Assembly (NCBI GenBank): GCA_029256665.1 | Contig: JAQSXN010000039.1 | Span: 1-12,389, forward strand | DNA from: Paenibacillus sp. | Lineage (GTDB): Bacteria > Bacillota > Bacilli > Paenibacillales > Paenibacillaceae | Reading direction: 5' to 3' | Length of the DNA: 12,389 nucleotides | Part shown: positions 632 to 8,866 of the stretch, one piece after another | How the letters are laid out: the number at the start of each line of letters is the position of its first letter | Numbering within the stretch: the stretch's first letter is position 1 | Made by a program: the position numbers and the translations under genes | Notes under the pieces: model-generated | Database searches by the model: none | Seen by the model: the letters and a program-made list of their open reading frames with translations, nothing else | What the model was told of the DNA's origin: nothing

Positions 632-1288
632 TTAGTAAGTTTCCATACTGATAAGTCCTAAGCGCTTCGCTTCCCGGATCGCTTCCGAACGCGACCTGAC
701 ATTCAGCTTCTCGAAAATTCGAGTCAGCTGATATTCCACGTTGCGCTGGCTGACGTGCAAGCTGACCGCAAGCTCCTTGTTGCTTACTCCCGCCGCCACC
801 TCCGACAGAATCGCCATCTCTTTCTCGTTGATCGATACGTCCTCGATCGACAGCTCGGAGCGCGACACCGTCACCTCGTTCCGCCTAAGCTGCTTTAGCA
901 GCGTAATCGGAATGACGGCTTCGCCGCGCAGCGCGCAGCGAATGGAGTGATTCAGCTGCTCGCGCGACGCGGTCTTGGATATAAAGCCGGATACGCCCGA
1001 CTCGATCAGCAGATTAAAATGCGAGCCGATCTCGTAGCCGGAATAAATAATGATTTTGCGCTCCGGATCCAGTTGCAGCAATCGCTTCGTCAGCTCCAGA
1101 CCGCTGATGCCGGGCATGTTAAGGTCGCATAGGATCAAATCAAAAGGCTCCTTGCCCATCTGGACCTTATTCATCGCTTCCAATGCGGAATGGGCGACGG
1201 TCACCTTCATCTCGTTGTCTTGTTCGATCATCGTCTTGGTGCCTTCCCCTACGGAAGGATGATCGTCAACTAATAAGATATGAATCAC
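632..1288 (-). CDS. comA: ComA-like response regulator of the ComX quorum-sensing system (NarL/LuxR family)
   Basis: A 218-residue response regulator, close to B. subtilis ComA (214). The receiver domain (about 1-120) has the acidic pair D8-D9, phospho-acceptor D55 in DLILCDLNMPG, and the conserved K105 in FISKT. The VDDHPSVGEGTKT start resembles ComA's DDHPAVMEGTKT. A LuxR-type helix-turn-helix covers about 150-215 (KELAVSLHVSQRNVEYQLTRIFEKLNVRSR). The known role of ComA is to activate competence and surfactin-type genes after phosphorylation by ComP; targets in this organism cannot be read from the window. The start is GTG at 1286-1288, preceded by an AGGGGGA ribosome binding site, so the gene overlaps the end of comP by 23 bases and is probably translationally coupled. 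No convincing terminator follows the stop. The comQ-comX-comP context makes the ComA assignment firm. Confidence 0.95.
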   Translation of the reverse strand: MIHILLVDDHPSVGEGTKTMIEQDNEMKVTVAHSALEAMNKVQMGKEPFDLILCDLNMPGISGLELTKRLLQLDPERKIIIYSGYEIGSHFNLLIESGVSGFISKTASREQLNHSIRCALRGEAVIPITLLKQLRRNEVTVSRSELSIEDVSINEKEMAILSEVAAGVSNKELAVSLHVSQRNVEYQLTRIFEKLNVRSRSEAIREAKRLGLISMETY

Positions 1289-3662
1289 CCGCTATCCCCC
1301 TATCGCTTCTTATTCCGTCCGTCATTATCGGCATTATAATCGTGACTTCGAGGCCGTTGCCGCGTTCCGAAATAAACGATATCTCGCCTTCCAGACTTGC
1401 AACGCGCTCCTTGATGCCCGACAATCCCATATGCTCGAACGACTCGACCATATGATTGACGTCCATGCCTACGCCATCGTCCTTGTACCGGAAATAGATC
1501 ATGCCTTTGCGCAGCTCGAGTTCCAGCATGACGATTCTGGCGCTTGCATGCTTGTCAGCGTTGCGCAGCAACTCCTGCACGATCCGGTAGATCGCCGTAA
1601 TCTGCTCTTCGTTTAATTCATCCTTTATCGGCTTCGATCTGAATTTCACTTCGAAGTTGACCCGCATCTGCGTATGTTCGATAATCGACTCCACCGCTTC
1701 GATGACGCCCATTTCCTTGAGCAATGGCGGCCTAAGCTCGTTGCAGGTCTCTCTGATCTGATGAATGACGTCAAGCAAACCTTCCTTAATGGCTTCCAGT
1801 TCGCTGCCCAGCTTGTCCGAAATCGGGTGGTCCATAATTACGCTCTCCAGTCTGCGATACCAGAGCAGCTGATCTTGCAGCGCCGAATCGTGCAGATCGG
1901 CGGCAAGCTTGCGACGTTCGTTCTCCGATAGGAGGAACAGCATTCTGAGCACCCATGGGGACGGCGCGTGCTCCTTGCGCACCTCGGACTGCAGATCTTC
2001 GATTAGACCTTCGATCAGGTACAAGTTCTCGAATACGATGCTTGAATAATTGGCCATCGTCTTAAGCCAGCGAATTTCGTCGGAATTAAACCGCGTATGA
2101 TTGGTTTTCTGTCCAATCCACAGCACATGAAAACGCGATCTCTGCTTGCCGATGACGAGTCCGAGTCCAAACGGCAGGTCGATGAGATCACCCGGTTTAA
2201 ACGTATTGACGATGCCCAGCAGGAAGTCCGCCGTCACGAGCTCCTCTTGCTCGTCCTTCATCGGGAATACCGCATGCTCCGATTGATCGACGATCAAGAA
2301 CGTAATCCGTCCAACGGGGAGCAAATCGTTGATCTCGCTCTTCAGCACCGCTTCCAGATCGGCTTGCTTCATCACCTTGGCCACGTTGCGCGAGAATCGG
2401 TCGAGGCTGTCCTGATAGCTATACATCGCTTTAAATAATCTGGGCCGAAACCGTTGGTCGATCTGCTCCTTGGCATATAAGAACAAGGTCATCCCCACGT
2501 ATAGAACGACAAAAGCTCCAATAAACTCGGACCAGACGCCGCCATCCCGCTCCTGCATCGCGAGCGTAACCGCTCCCGCAAGCAACAGCGAAGGGATCAA
2601 GCACAACGACGTATAATACTTGAAGCGAGTTAATATGAAATCAATGTCGAACAGCTGATTAGAGGTAGACAAGTAGAAGTAGACCACCGGCAGAATGAAC
2701 AAGAACAATGCCGTGAACGCCGGGGGCAGCACTTGGTCGTTGCCGAACAGCTGCGGCAATAGATTTAACGTCGCGAACGGCGTAAACGCCACAAGATGGG
2801 CGGTCAGCGTAATGGTGAATAACGAATGCAGCTTCGTGAATCGATGTTTGATGTATTTGAGAATGAGCTTGTAGACGCACACCAGGTTGCCGATTAGGAC
2901 AAGCGCGCTGTACGCGCCTTTTATAACGTTGAACGTCCCGTTGCTTAGCAGATCCGTCCATATGTAGAGCAAGCTGCTAGCGCTGACCAGTCCAATGATC
3001 GCGAATAGCGCCGCCAATAGTCGATTGTTTATAAAGCTTGCGTCGAATCTGCGCAAGTACCTGTTCATGAAGCTCATGTACAACAGCGGAATAGCAGGCA
3101 GTACGACGTAGATGATCGACAGCCCGACGGGATCCCTCAGGATGGAGGCCGATGAGCTGTAGTAGCTGATTCCGATCGACGAGAAGAAGAGGATCAGCAG
3201 GATGGCGGCCGGATCATGACTGCGCTTTACGTAGAGGAAAATGGAAAAAGCGCAGAACACGAATAACGAGATGCCCGGCACGTACAGTTGAAGCAGCAGT
3301 TCTGTCGCGGTATGCTCCCCCGACCAGGCTTTGGCAAACGTAATCGATACCGTCGCGCCGTCTTGCCGTTTCACGAGGATGTTGTCGGCATCCTCAAGCG
3401 AATCGTATTTCGACAAGTTGGGAAACTGCGATGCGAGCTTGCCGTTGATTTCGACAATTTGATCTCCGATCTGCAGTCCGTTCATCTTGGCTTGTCCCCC
3501 GGGAGCCAAGGAAACGACAAAAAAACCGGCATTATTCTGTGGCGTGACGTAAGCCCCGATAAAAGGCACGCGAATAATGACGGCGGTCAAATATATGATG
3601 ATCGAAACAAGTAACAATAGGAAGAGGATTGCCGTTAGCCGTTTAATGGGAGTGGGTTTCAT
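1266..3662 (-). CDS. comP: ComP-like membrane sensor histidine kinase for the ComX pheromone
   Basis: A 798-residue kinase (B. subtilis ComP is 769). A first membrane helix (about 10-32) is followed by an extracytoplasmic PDZ-like segment (about 42-112, NNAGFFVVSLAPGGQAKMNGLQIGDQIVEING), which B. subtilis ComP also has. About eight hydrophobic segments follow up to ~395, then a GAF-like region (~415-550) and the HisKA_3 kinase core. The phospho-acceptor is H591 in DLHDSALQD. The TRETC/RPPLL helix is seen as IRETCNELRPPLL (636-648). ATP-binding boxes are N701 (QELLRNADKH), DDGVGMD (728-734) and GLSGIKERV (747-755). It should bind modified ComX at the membrane and phosphorylate ComA. ATG start at 3660-3662, with AGGAAGAGG five bases upstream; it begins 37 bases after comX. 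The last ~18 residues are a tail that reads through the start of comA. Confidence 0.95.
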   Translation of the reverse strand: MKPTPIKRLTAILFLLLLVSIIIYLTAVIIRVPFIGAYVTPQNNAGFFVVSLAPGGQAKMNGLQIGDQIVEINGKLASQFPNLSKYDSLEDADNILVKRQDGATVSITFAKAWSGEHTATELLLQLYVPGISLFVFCAFSIFLYVKRSHDPAAILLILFFSSIGISYYSSSASILRDPVGLSIIYVVLPAIPLLYMSFMNRYLRRFDASFINNRLLAALFAIIGLVSASSLLYIWTDLLSNGTFNVIKGAYSALVLIGNLVCVYKLILKYIKHRFTKLHSLFTITLTAHLVAFTPFATLNLLPQLFGNDQVLPPAFTALFLFILPVVYFYLSTSNQLFDIDFILTRFKYYTSLCLIPSLLLAGAVTLAMQERDGGVWSEFIGAFVVLYVGMTLFLYAKEQIDQRFRPRLFKAMYSYQDSLDRFSRNVAKVMKQADLEAVLKSEINDLLPVGRITFLIVDQSEHAVFPMKDEQEELVTADFLLGIVNTFKPGDLIDLPFGLGLVIGKQRSRFHVLWIGQKTNHTRFNSDEIRWLKTMANYSSIVFENLYLIEGLIEDLQSEVRKEHAPSPWVLRMLFLLSENERRKLAADLHDSALQDQLLWYRRLESVIMDHPISDKLGSELEAIKEGLLDVIHQIRETCNELRPPLLKEMGVIEAVESIIEHTQMRVNFEVKFRSKPIKDELNEEQITAIYRIVQELLRNADKHASARIVMLELELRKGMIYFRYKDDGVGMDVNHMVESFEHMGLSGIKERVASLEGEISFISERGNGLEVTIIMPIMTDGIRSDRGIAGDSYLIS

Positions 3663-3699
3663 GCAAGCCTCTTCCTTTCGATCTCTTCATGCGCAGAAT

Positions 3700-3870
3700 C
3701 TAGTTCCAGCCGTAGCCGAAGTACCGGTTCCCGTCTTTTTGTTCCTTCAATTCGCCAAGGAGTGCTTTCTGTTCTTCCATCGATACGCCAGCCAGACCTA
3801 CTTGTCCACCCATAACCAGCTTCATGTTTTCCGTGCTGCTTGCCAATTGACGAATCATTTCTTTCAACAT
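3700..3870 (-). CDS. comX: ComX-like pheromone precursor, 56 residues
   Basis: A 56-residue ORF sits exactly where comX belongs, between comQ and comP (B. subtilis ComX is 55 residues). It starts ATG (3868-3870) with GGAGG at 3879-3883, eight bases away, and ends TAG at 3700-3702. It begins MLKEMIRQLASS, has the ComX-like middle GLAGVSMEEQKALLGEL (a 'G..xxEExxxLL' pattern), and ends KEQKDGNRYFGYGWN. The only tryptophan is W55, next to last. In known ComX peptides ComQ attaches a farnesyl or geranyl group to a Trp near the C-terminus and the last 5-10 residues are released as the signal. By analogy the active peptide here would be the C-terminal part around R-Y-F-G-Y-G-W-N; the cleavage point and lipid are not readable from sequence. 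It has no signal peptide, as is normal for ComX. ComX is among the fastest-evolving bacterial signals, so weak overall similarity is expected. Confidence 0.93.
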   Translation of the reverse strand: MLKEMIRQLASSTENMKLVMGGQVGLAGVSMEEQKALLGELKEQKDGNRYFGYGWN

Positions 3871-3878
3871 TTTACATT

Positions 3879-3883
3879 CCTCC
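3879..3883 (-). promoter_or_regulatory. Ribosome binding site of comX
   Basis: GGAGG on the minus strand, eight bases before the ATG. It is one of the strongest such sites in the window and is a main reason to accept this short ORF as a real, well-translated gene. Confidence 0.85.
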
Positions 3884-3896
3884 GCTTCTCCTAGTT

Positions 3897-3920
3897 AATG
3901 TACTCGAAATCTAGTACATT
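3897..3920 (-). repeat. Perfect inverted repeat at the predicted comX transcription start
   Basis: AATGTACT (3897-3904) and AGTACATT (3913-3920) are perfect reverse complements separated by eight bases. The element covers the predicted +1 (about 3917) of the comX promoter and lies just upstream of the ribosome binding site. It could be a repressor or activator operator, or a small leader hairpin. It does not match the B. subtilis ComA box (TTGCGG-N4-CCGCAA). Confidence 0.7.
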
Positions 3921-3923
3921 ATT

Positions 3924-3951
3924 ACTATAACAAACTTAGGAATATAGGCAA
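3924..3951 (-). promoter_or_regulatory. Predicted sigma-A promoter for comX-comP-comA
   Basis: On the minus strand, TTGCCT (3946-3951) and TATAGT (3924-3929) are 16 bases apart and match the -35 and -10 consensus at 4/6 and 5/6. It lies in the 140-base gap between comQ and comX, which is longer than in B. subtilis where the two genes abut. It would let comX, comP and comA be expressed apart from comQ. Confidence 0.6.
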
Positions 3952-4010
3952 ACGCAAATCTGATTGGTATTTACCGAAACGCGTATTGCGTGGTATCGCC
4001 CCGAATGCCG

Positions 4011-5024
4011 TCAGCCCGTGACGAAATTCCGGTCCAAATCCCTGCCAGCTTGTGCCGACGCGTCCTGCGGGCTATCGTGCTTGCCCTCGAGAACGTCGAT
4101 CAGTCTCGTCTTCCACGCTTCATCGACGGCTGTCGACGCCAGTTGATCCAAGAAACGGTTGTAGTGCATCCGGCCCATTACCGTTCCGTACAACAGCGCT
4201 CCGGTGCGTTCGAGCGCATCGCGGAACAAGATTTGATTGCCAAGCACCGCCTCCGGCCCAAGGGCGCCTCCGTAATACTCGGCGATCCAAGCATCCTGTT
4301 CTCCGATGCTTTCTAGCATGTACAAGATGGGAAGGCTGACCTTGCGCTGCAGGAAATCGCTCTTTTCATCCCAGCGGACAAGGTCTCTAATATCGTTTTT
4401 CATCTGCGAGGACAGCCCCAATTCTTCGGCATACGAGGCCACTTCCTCATTCCAGCCTCGCCCGGCGGCGAGTACCCCGGCGTTGCAAGCCAGGACGAAC
4501 AAGGAGGCGGACTTGCGCCTCACCATCTCCAGATAGGTCTCTTCATCCGACGCCTCGCGCGCGATGTCCATCATTTGGCCATTTGCCGACAGCAATAGCT
4601 GTTCGTTCAGCTTGACCGCCATCGCTCCTCGCCGCGCCGAATCGGGCATGCTCTCCAGAAGCGCATGCTGCGCCAGCGTCAGCATAGATGTCGCGACGTG
4701 GATCGCCTCGGGCAGCGGCACCTCCATCCATGGTTTCGACGGAGCATCCTGATCCTCGAGATCGTCCAAAATATCCGAAGCCAGTATAAGCAATTCGATG
4801 CCGGCCGCCGCTCGTACGGGATCCCCTTTGACGCCTCCGTGCATGCGGTAATGGATATAGGTCAGCGGTCCGAATATCATGGGCTCGCCCTGCTTATCCT
4901 CCGCGAAGAGAAGAGCCAGCTCCTGAAGTCGCCGCGATTGAAATTCCGTGCGTATGACGGACTTCATGGCGAGCGCGATCCGTTCGTTCAGACCGCTCCC
5001 GCCCGGTAAGTGTTTCCCGTCCAA
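4011..5024 (-). CDS. comQ: ComQ-like isoprenyl transferase that modifies and processes ComX
   Basis: A trans-isoprenyl-diphosphate-synthase-fold protein, 337 residues from the chosen TTG start (B. subtilis ComQ is 299). The central block TYIHYRMHGG...AGIELLILASDILDDLEDQD...PWM lines up with B. subtilis ComQ's TILHYVVFGG...AGIEILILSSDIMDDLEDED...WM. It contains the first Asp-rich motif (D84, D87, D88). A second Asp-rich motif, NDIRD (210-214), is present; from memory the B. subtilis enzyme has lost it. ComQ uses farnesyl/geranyl diphosphate to modify ComX on Trp. Start choice: TTG at 5022-5024 has GGAGG (5032-5036) seven bases upstream. In-frame ATGs at 5042 and 5051 have no ribosome binding site and lie almost at the predicted transcription start. 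The C-terminal ~20 residues are polar and probably disordered. Confidence 0.93.
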   Translation of the reverse strand: MDGKHLPGGSGLNERIALAMKSVIRTEFQSRRLQELALLFAEDKQGEPMIFGPLTYIHYRMHGGVKGDPVRAAAGIELLILASDILDDLEDQDAPSKPWMEVPLPEAIHVATSMLTLAQHALLESMPDSARRGAMAVKLNEQLLLSANGQMMDIAREASDEETYLEMVRRKSASLFVLACNAGVLAAGRGWNEEVASYAEELGLSSQMKNDIRDLVRWDEKSDFLQRKVSLPILYMLESIGEQDAWIAEYYGGALGPEAVLGNQILFRDALERTGALLYGTVMGRMHYNRFLDQLASTAVDEAWKTRLIDVLEGKHDSPQDASAQAGRDLDRNFVTG

Positions 5025-5223: not shown

Positions 5224-5967
5224 TTAAACTTCAACGCCCCCCTCGTAGCCGACGGCGTATTCCATATAGACGGCCTCCATCGTAAGTCCGCCGCGGGGTA
5301 GCTCCTCGATGAGCTGCATCGGACTGTCGCAAGCGACCAGCTGGCCGCCCCTCATGACGCCGACCCGATCGCAGCAATATTGAATTTCGGTCATGTCGTG
5401 CGAGATGATGACGATTGTTTTCCCTTGCAGCCTGAGTCCTGCAAGAATCGACCAGTACTCGCGTTTCGACTGGCTGTCCAACCCCGTTGTCGGTTCATCC
5501 AAGAATATAATCGAAGGATCGCTAATAATCGAAGCGGCGAGCATCGTCCGTTGCCGCAGCCCCGACGACAGCCGATTGACGATTTGCCCGGCGTAAGGCA
5601 TCAGCCCGAATTGTTTCAGGATAACGTTAATATCCACTTGGCGGCGATAGTAGTCTTGGAACATCTCCAGCGCTTCCCGTACCGTTTTTTTGTCCACGAG
5701 CGTCGTCGTCTGCATGAAAAAATTGATATGTTCCTTAAGCTTCTCCGCTTCGGTGGCGATATCGAAGCCAAGCACGCGAACGGAACCCTCGTCGGGCGCG
5801 CGTTGGCCGGAGAGGAGCTCTAGCAATGTCGTCTTGCCGGCCCCGCTCTTGCCGATTATGCCGAACAGCTCGCCCTGACTGACCTCGAAGGAGATTTGCT
5901 TGACTGCGTGAGTAGCGCCTAGATACTTGCTGACATGTTTCGCCTGGATGACGGCTCTCTGATCCAC
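5224..5967 (-). CDS. ABC transporter ATP-binding protein without an adjacent permease
   Basis: A 247-residue ATPase subunit with the full set of motifs: Walker A GKSGAGKTT (39-47), Q-loop Q86, signature LSSGLRQR (133-140), Walker B IIFLDEP (153-159, E158), D-loop GLD (162-164) and H-loop H190. The layout is that of ABC-2-type (DrrA/CcmA-like) exporter ATPases. The signature departs from LSGGQ: the second Gly is Ser and Gln is Leu. Start GTG at 5965-5967, with GGAGG (5976-5980) eight bases upstream. No membrane subunit is encoded nearby, so it either pairs with a permease elsewhere or has lost its partner. It lies 200 bases upstream of comQ in the same direction with no clear terminator between, so some read-through into the com genes is possible. 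A role in ComX export is not supported by the sequence. Confidence 0.85.
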   Translation of the reverse strand: MDQRAVIQAKHVSKYLGATHAVKQISFEVSQGELFGIIGKSGAGKTTLLELLSGQRAPDEGSVRVLGFDIATEAEKLKEHINFFMQTTTLVDKKTVREALEMFQDYYRRQVDINVILKQFGLMPYAGQIVNRLSSGLRQRTMLAASIISDPSIIFLDEPTTGLDSQSKREYWSILAGLRLQGKTIVIISHDMTEIQYCCDRVGVMRGGQLVACDSPMQLIEELPRGGLTMEAVYMEYAVGYEGGVEV

Positions 5968-6149: not shown

Positions 6150-6417
6150 TTATCCACAACCCTGAATAAATTGTTAGTGAATTCAGTCGACATTTTTCGC
6201 GGAATCCTCCGCATTTCCTATGCCTTTAGCTATATACAGCTAATTTCGACAAGATAAAAGGTTAATCTGTCCACGTTATTCACATTATCCACAACCTGAT
6301 TGTGAAAAAGTTACCCCCATTTCCATCACAACAATAAAAAGGCGTAAACCTAAGGTTTACGCCTTCTTTACATCTTTATCCACATAATTCAGCCACTTGT
6401 GGATAACTTTGTGCACA
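6150..6417. promoter_or_regulatory. DnaA-box cluster (five perfect TTATNCACA sites)
   Basis: Perfect matches to TTATNCACA lie at 6150-6158 (+), 6276-6284 (+), 6285-6293 (+, directly abutting the previous one), 6376-6384 (+) and 6398-6406 (-). One-mismatch sites are at 6301-6309 (-) and 6409-6417 (+). Such density is far above chance for a 9-mer in 270 bases. The replication genes dnaA/dnaN are absent, so this is not a standard oriC. B. subtilis carries DnaA-box clusters outside oriC that bind DnaA and restrain initiation; from memory one is next to gcp (tsaD). Here tsaD is about 2.5 kb away. Confidence 0.8.
6331..6365 (-). terminator. Rho-independent terminator of leuA
   Basis: A perfect 12-bp stem (AAGGCGTAAACC, 6339-6350, with 6354-6365) with a 3-base loop is followed on the minus strand by TTTTTATTGTT. 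It lies about 90 bases after the leuA stop codon and sits in the middle of the DnaA-box cluster. Confidence 0.9.
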
Positions 6418-8060: not shown

Positions 8061-8395
8061 AAAAAAAGCCCGCCGTCTCCGATAAAGAGACGACAAGCTT
8101 ACGCTATGCCGTGGTACCACTCTAATTGACCGCGCTTAAACAAAAAGTTCGGCGCATGCCCGCTTATAACCCGTTCACGGAGGCGACCCGTATCGACGTA
8201 CTGACGGCTCATCTTCGGCAGGCTTAGCCCCCTTCGCATGCTCCGCGTTCCCGCGATCCGCTCACAGGCGAGATTCGAACCCGGTTTCGACTGCGTCGCA
8301 CCTACCCGCAGCTCTCTTGACCCGCATCGTGGAGATATCCACGGCGCGAATTTGCCAACCGTCGTTCTACTTGCTCCTGTTCTCAGCGTTTGCTT
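8061..8395 (-). promoter_or_regulatory. Leucine T-box riboswitch, proximal copy, upstream of leuA
   Basis: A second complete T-box leader. Stem I runs from about 8390 (GAGAACAGGAGCAAGTAGA), with the AGAGAGCTGCGGG-AGGTGCGACGCAGTCG apical region and the specifier in GAATCTCGCC. The CUC codon (Leu) is at 8270-8272 (minus strand). The T-box sequence is AGAGTGGTACCACG (8110-8123), which departs from AGGGTGGNACCGCG at two positions but keeps the UGGU core that pairs with the tRNA ACCA end (discriminator A, as in tRNA-Leu). The terminator stem lies at 8068-8100 with a T-run at 8061-8067. The leuA ribosome binding site follows directly. Confidence 0.88.
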
Positions 8396-8483: not shown

Positions 8484-8866
8484 AAAAAAAGCCCATCGCC
8501 TCTATGCAAGAGACGACAGGCTATATTGACCCGCGCGGTACCACCCTTGTTGGCATTCCCAGCTCTTAACAGCGTCGGAATACCCACCTTAGTCATCATG
8601 ACGGCTCCGGAAGCCGGCATCATGAACCCGATTACGGAGGTTAGCCGTTGCCCGGTAATGACCTCATCCCGACGGCAGATAGCCTTCCGTCTTACGAGTG
8701 ACACGTCCCAAGCTCCGCTCCCAGGCGAGATTCAAGGTTTCCTTCGACTGCGTTGCACCTGCCCGCAGCTCTCTCATGCTCCCATCGGAATATCGACGGA
8801 GGCGACCCGGATTACCTTTACTACTCCTGTTCGTAGCGTTTGTGCTGATGTGGTTGTGAAGTATTG
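8484..8866 (-). promoter_or_regulatory. Leucine T-box riboswitch, distal copy, upstream of leuA
   Basis: The first T-box met by RNA polymerase. Stem I begins near 8840 (GAACAGGAGTAGTAAAGG), with the apical AGAGAGCTGCGGGCAGGTGCAACGCAGTCG region. The specifier CUC (Leu) is at 8727-8729 in the GAATCTCGCC context. The T-box AGGGTGGTACCGCG (8534-8547) matches the consensus at every position. The competing terminator hairpin uses 8490-8503 and 8509-8522 and is followed by seven Ts (8484-8490). It is homologous to the proximal copy, so the pair looks like a tandem duplication. Confidence 0.92.

Follow-up and report, generated by a model that had tools for sequence, protein, structure and literature searches.

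The question raised by this locus is whether four adjacent Paenibacillus genes resembling comQ, comX, comP and comA form a true quorum-sensing circuit, and how such a circuit would be wired. The initial annotation had read them as a complete comQXPA locus in canonical order with intact catalytic residues, located outside the classic Bacillus setting in a probable member of the Paenibacillaceae. The window, i.e. the whole stretch of DNA analysed (12,389 nt), makes up an entire contig, and the genome assembly to which it belongs is 64% complete. We regard the locus as a true, intact and vertically kept ComQXPA peptide-pheromone circuit and a member of the known family (probability about 0.85). 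The four genes, all intact, lie next to each other in canonical order on the minus strand, and a fifth gene is linked to comQ:

4011..5024, minus strand: comQ, tryptophan prenyltransferase (PF00348, DILDDLED/NDIRD, AlphaFold fold, apart from housekeeping synthases)
3700..3870, minus strand: comX, 56-aa pheromone precursor ending in YFGYGWN with W55 (PF05952, conserved in 49 of 49 loci)
1266..3662, minus strand: comP, sensor kinase of 798 aa with ten hydrophobic segments, PDZ, HisKA_3 (H591) and HATPase_c
632..1288, minus strand: comA, response regulator (D55) of 218 aa with LuxR-type HTH
5224..5967, minus strand: ABC ATPase gene linked to comQ, putative role (PF00005, 109.7 bits)

The claimed gene order and the catalytic residues (ComQ Asp-rich motif, ComX W55, ComP H591, ComA D55) stood up to inspection. 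ComQ scored 68.1 bits with PF00348 (cut-off 27) and carries DILDDLED at 93 and NDIRD at 219; it thus has the first Asp-rich motif of the isoprenyl-synthase family and no classical second one, a motif described as missing from ComQ in PMC10853753. Its AlphaFold model (16 sequences, mean pLDDT 89.4) matched isoprenyl diphosphate synthases in the PDB. The ComX precursor, with tryptophan near its C-terminus, gave 27.3 bits with PF05952 (cut-off 25), and its 56 aa fall inside the range of 52-73 aa stated for ComX in the 2014 census (PMC4008528). In ComP, a multi-pass kinase whose membrane segments were called from hydropathy only, the PDZ domain (29.3 bits, cut-off 23.2) is placed between hydrophobic segments 1 and 2, HisKA_3 (25.1, cut-off 24) and HATPase_c (44.2, cut-off 26.4) are also present, and ComA combines Response_reg (86.1, cut-off 30.2) with GerE (52.3, cut-off 23.5). 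The profile searches proposed in the initial annotation therefore returned Pfam matches above cut-off for all four proteins, narrowly so for ComX and HisKA_3, and among the NCBIfam families listed none covers ComQ, ComX, ComP or ComA above its cut-off. The case for the locus is for this reason carried by conservation. The comP and comA genes overlap by 23 nt, and comP-comA is given as the commonest overlap in the non-subtilis clade of the census (PMC4008528).

The comQ reading frame, counted from its first ATG, spans 5051-4011 (346 aa). An in-frame TTG at 5024 with GGAGG 8 nt upstream is the preferred candidate start, since ComQ of relatives starts at about the matching position and the residues preceding it were modelled at low confidence.

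A survey of 148 related genomes at E < 1e-80 detected ComQ in 48 of the 51 genomes of the same genus, the three without it being G002, G024 and G040 (84% complete). Altogether 49 loci were examined, namely the window, 47 other loci of the genus and a single locus from G061, which belongs to a sister genus. Each contained a comX ORF with tryptophan second to last (48 of the genus, one of the sister genus), so that comX is conserved in relatives with the same locus; tblastn with the ComX of the window alone matched it in 46 of 49. A comA gene was present in 48 loci (G049 stops at a contig edge) and a comP ORF of more than 700 aa in 46, the remainder being G049 and two shorter ORFs. The survey for the four-gene locus thus shows that comQXPA is a near-universal, core trait of this Paenibacillus genus. 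All 16 database homologues of ComX carried a precomputed PF05952 assignment, and some of these peptides were already named ComX by NCBI. The supposed placement of the host in the Paenibacillaceae proved right: among the best 80 of 141 relatives (from 253 pattern matches), the closest named ones were Paenibacillus species, examples being P. agaridevorans, P. nanensis, P. glycanilyticus and P. harenae.

In the phylogeny, a branch with 99.6% support separated five housekeeping prenyl synthases (taken from G000, G010 and G028) from 50 ComQ-type sequences, so ComQ does not group with housekeeping polyprenyl synthases; L203, an antisense ORF, was left out of this tree and L204 gave no ORF. A first tree, which still included L203, placed the locus with loci of other Paenibacillaceae and apart from Bacillus pumilus-type ComQ. 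Over 23 close pairs the median dN/dS of comX was 0.045, and comX is under purifying selection; the medians for close pairs of the other genes were 0.081 (comQ), 0.039 (comP), 0.036 (ABC) and 0.006 (comA). With order, residues and host group confirmed, ComQ set apart and comX conserved, the earlier interpretation as ComQXPA is supported.

Covariation between signal and receptor was analysed by partial Mantel tests with the distances of tsaD and ydiF as controls; of the 49 loci, 37 had every gene and were used, and the other 12 were without some gene. The last eight residues of ComX, the core, correlated at 0.58 with the membrane half of ComP and more weakly with its kinase half (0.35), ComQ (0.18) and the ABC ATPase (0.17), and the ABC ATPase at 0.57 with ComQ, 0.53 with the ComX leader and 0.47 with the ComP kinase half, shared ancestry not being removed from any of these values. 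The pattern is consistent with one module for reception and another for production, with the same reservation that the Mantel test leaves shared ancestry in place. From conservation, selection and signal-receptor covariation we infer a circuit that is probably working. With about 50 species sharing one orthologous locus and differing in their ComX cores, the genus is suited to studying signal-receptor coevolution.

By homology to B. subtilis, ComQ would add an isoprenyl group to Trp55 of ComX, whose C-terminal piece would then be cut off and leave the cell; the membrane part of ComP would sense this piece and ComP would phosphorylate ComA at Asp55. By description, the two systems are alike in the four genes, their order and domains, the tryptophan near the end of ComX, the membrane ComP with many segments and the LuxR-type HTH of ComA. 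In contrast to B. subtilis, the Paenibacillus locus has a linked ABC ATPase and a site between tsaD and ydiF (again by description), as well as predicted ComA sites before comX, the B. subtilis system being discussed in PMC7794433 as one without signal feedback. The location outside the classic Bacillus setting is correct, but as something new this claim fails, because the census as far as consulted already holds 20 comQXPA loci outside the B. subtilis clade, and its loci from Bacillales and Clostridiales that are unlike B. subtilis have the same gene order and comP-comA overlap as found here (PMC4008528). The only Paenibacillus named in that part of the census is P. curdlanolyticus YK9, called 'unusual' (PMC4008528); its peptide scored 15.2 bits with PF05952, below the cut-off. 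P. polymyxa has been reported to lack comQXPA (PMC4209062, PMC6052121), ComX is mentioned near lanthipeptide clusters in Paenibacillus sp. (PMC12715929), and our search of open-licence papers found no report of a genus-wide comQXPA in Paenibacillus. The locus is thus a new example of a known family, with a testable prediction for its wiring.

PalQ, PalX and PalP of Paenibacillus alvei are the same three protein types, a tryptophan prenyltransferase, a precursor peptide and a kinase (PMC10853753), so the cluster might make a prenylated peptide of the PalQ/PalX kind that is used for something besides quorum sensing. We consider this highly improbable. The Pal system is described as a three-gene cluster without a response regulator, and PalX as having a nitrile-hydratase-type (NHLP-type) leader and a C-terminal tryptophan (PMC10853753); here a ComA-type regulator gene overlaps comP, only PF05952 matches the precursor at E values up to 1, and the tryptophan is second to last. 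PalQ is moreover described in PMC10853753 as clustering apart from ComQ.

The circuit may differ from that of B. subtilis in how comX is regulated. In the comQ-comX gap a strongly conserved block consists of CGCAAAA, TTTCGGTAAATACGAA and TTTTGCG, and in the window the following elements were assigned:

3946..3991, minus strand: conserved array before comX, with a predicted function as ComA site
3991-3986, minus strand: array element ACGCAA
3979-3967, minus strand: array element TTTCGGTAAATAC
3958-3950, minus strand: array element TTTGCGTTT
3951-3946 and 3929-3924, minus strand: possible comX promoter, -35 TTGCCT and -10 TATAGT

The motif TT[GT][CT]GGnAAATAC was found in 41 of 49 loci and just twice elsewhere in the 1,869,712 strand-bases that these loci comprise; close variants stand in the remaining eight. 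In 40 of the 41 loci it stands 37 nt from the comX -10 element. A graded array score reached 13-15 of 15 in all 49 loci; among 2792 random windows three reached 13 and none scored higher. In 14 of the 41 loci the element reads TTGCGG, the ComA hexamer as published (PMC4797271). Within 220 nt upstream of comX such hexamers were also counted in 10 loci from other genera of the family (25 versus 2.2 expected), in ten further named Paenibacillaceae (18 versus 2.4), in four Desulfosporosinus loci (5 versus 0.6) and in 13 Bacillaceae loci (2 versus 0.9). The strict 16-nt ComA box gave a weaker picture. In the genus its score hardly rose in the gap between comQ and comX (7.35 versus 6.70) and was not raised before comQ (7.47 versus 7.38), no perfect box was found in the 49 loci, where the right half of the array is degenerate, and TTTCGGTAAATAC with one mismatch was genome-wide not clearly above its control; three perfect boxes occurred in the 10 loci from other genera, in close relatives.

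On balance, the ComA-box-like footprint at a fixed distance of 37 nt from the comX -10 element in 40 of 41 loci leads us to predict autoinduction of ComX: phosphorylated ComA probably binds the array and raises transcription of comX-comP-comA, a positive feedback that B. subtilis lacks (PMC7794433). The block might instead be an RNA hairpin, i.e. a terminator, attenuator or processing signal ending comQ, and comX might then be as little autoinduced as in B. subtilis. The block does sit directly behind comQ, and RNA folding of seven blocks yielded z-scores between -1.35 and -6.87, with a 16-pair hairpin in one of them; any palindromic DNA site, however, folds as RNA too, and a terminator scan of the window gave no site at the block. 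Further points against a hairpin are the fixed spacing to the -10 element, the extra direct copies of CCGCAA in some loci of other genera, and one clade in which the outer arms are unpaired and the hexamers TTGCGG and CCGCAA are nevertheless kept. The hairpin reading is a serious but less probable alternative to ComA binding. Open-licence papers searched contained no report of a ComA site on comX. A genus-wide relative that seemingly has ComA sites at the signal gene allows a direct comparison of two wirings.

ComA targets were also sought beyond the locus. Perfect ComA boxes numbered 112 in 51 genomes versus 57 for the reversed pattern, and in the genome of the window, with one mismatch allowed, 40 boxes were found versus 11 for a control pattern. 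Among 20 sites in 18 loci (16 hand-picked from the listed sites, 2 from the genome of the window) no ComA target gene was found; 16 of the 20 fall within ORFs, a recurrent site lying inside a conserved gene, and no target in a wider regulon is claimed.

The linked ABC ATPase has Walker A, signature and Walker B motifs and no hydrophobic segment. In all 49 loci its gene lies on the upstream side of comQ, in L056 at a distance of 4 kb. A search at E < 1e-60, with at most 30 candidates scored per genome and G061 not among the genomes, found it as a single copy in 45 of 51 genus genomes, in none of the three comQ-less genus genomes and in none of 38 other genomes. Still further from comQ the following site was identified:

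6150..6406, no strand assigned: DnaA-box cluster (five exact copies of TTATNCACA) lying downstream of leuA, towards ABC and comQ

Five exact boxes in the window compare with 0.15 expected. The 49 loci together contain 248 exact boxes, of which 215 are found in the 750 nt preceding the ABC gene, and 47 loci have at least one. A comparison set comprised 16 tsaD stretches, taken from G061 and from genomes that are distant or lack comQ. In 13 of the 16 tsaD, DnaA boxes and ydiF followed in order; comQXPA was present among these in G061 only, a comA-like gene in G002 and G024, a comP-like gene in G138, and no such gene in nine. The DnaA site seems older than the adjoining comQXPA, to which it is probably no more than a neighbour, because the box cluster exists without com genes and the interval from gcp (tsaD) to ydiF contains a strong DnaA site in B. 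subtilis as well (PMC4447404). No report of DnaA boxes neighbouring comQXPA was found among open-licence papers.

Both the ABC ATPase gene and the DnaA boxes are likely to be mere neighbours that are kept by a stable tsaD-ydiF segment and stand outside signalling. In line with this, leuA and tsaD are likewise retained beside the locus, 9 of the 13 ordered stretches have no com genes, no ABC permease was seen between leuA or tsaD and comQ, and three genomes with comQ have an ABC gene that is broken or fused. For the ABC gene, but not for the boxes, two observations speak against it: the absence from the three comQ-less genomes, which are possibly one deep lineage (at most 30 candidates scored per genome), and a covariation that, under control for tsaD and ydiF, is strongest with ComQ (0.57) and next with the leader of ComX (0.53). 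That the ATPase helps to make or export the signal is accordingly a tentative idea, and, with no permease adjoining it, the export role is a guess. Slightly less probable again is the combined model of a self-amplifying ComQXPA, in which ComA would drive comX-comP-comA and the prenylated signal would be exported with the help of its own ABC ATPase, one that coevolves with ComQ and with the leader of ComX. Since the export route of ComX is called unknown in the consulted part of the 2014 census (PMC4008528), the ATPase is a testable candidate for this question.

Several further features were noted in these surroundings. Some loci have a methyltransferase-like ORF of 250-282 aa between leuA/tsaD and comQ. 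The ORF 6214-6053 (53 aa) was rejected as a small conserved gene, as the patches that it shares with other loci are translated DnaA boxes and conservation does not extend over a full protein. Two tandem T-box-like leaders precede leuA on the minus strand (8506-8843 and 8083-8393), with RF00230 scores of 81.4 bits (E 7.1e-18) and 67.7 bits (E 2.3e-14); neither reaches the Rfam gathering score of 93. The ComQ-less G024 (L227) and G002 (L229) have a fast-evolving comA-like regulator gene (36% and 42% identity) beside ydiF, where comA would sit; these orphan regulators could be relics, with long branches and unsettled orthology (L157 had no ComA row in this comparison). G138 (L092, L238) has a split locus of comQ-comA and, about 20 kb off on the same contig, a comP-like gene (35% identity) that follows DnaA boxes and is next to ydiF.

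Other taxonomic families of the same order have a ComQ-like gene placed after comP-like and comA-like genes. In 13 of 14 comP-comA-comQ loci (L096, L098-L100, L102-L107, L109-L111) an ORF of 38-82 aa with tryptophan in its last residues is divergent from comP, as it is in two further loci (L303, L305); L101, where the comP match is another, distant kinase, was left out of the count. Such an ORF was seen at 7 of 147 other ORF starts and at 3 of 48 starts of comP of the window type. This arrangement is a candidate divergent-signal form of ComQXPA; the census describes an X on the opposite strand, but between Q and P (PMC4008528). PF05952 matched neither three of the divergent peptides nor one peptide from a second locus of the genus. 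Second, distant ComQ-type genes are present in seven genus genomes (L296-L302 in G033, G015, G012, G047, G017, G035 and G042), with comP- and comA-like genes downstream in all seven and a comX-like ORF between in six. The leaders of L298-L302 start with MW(S/T), and the one tested is unlike PF05952.
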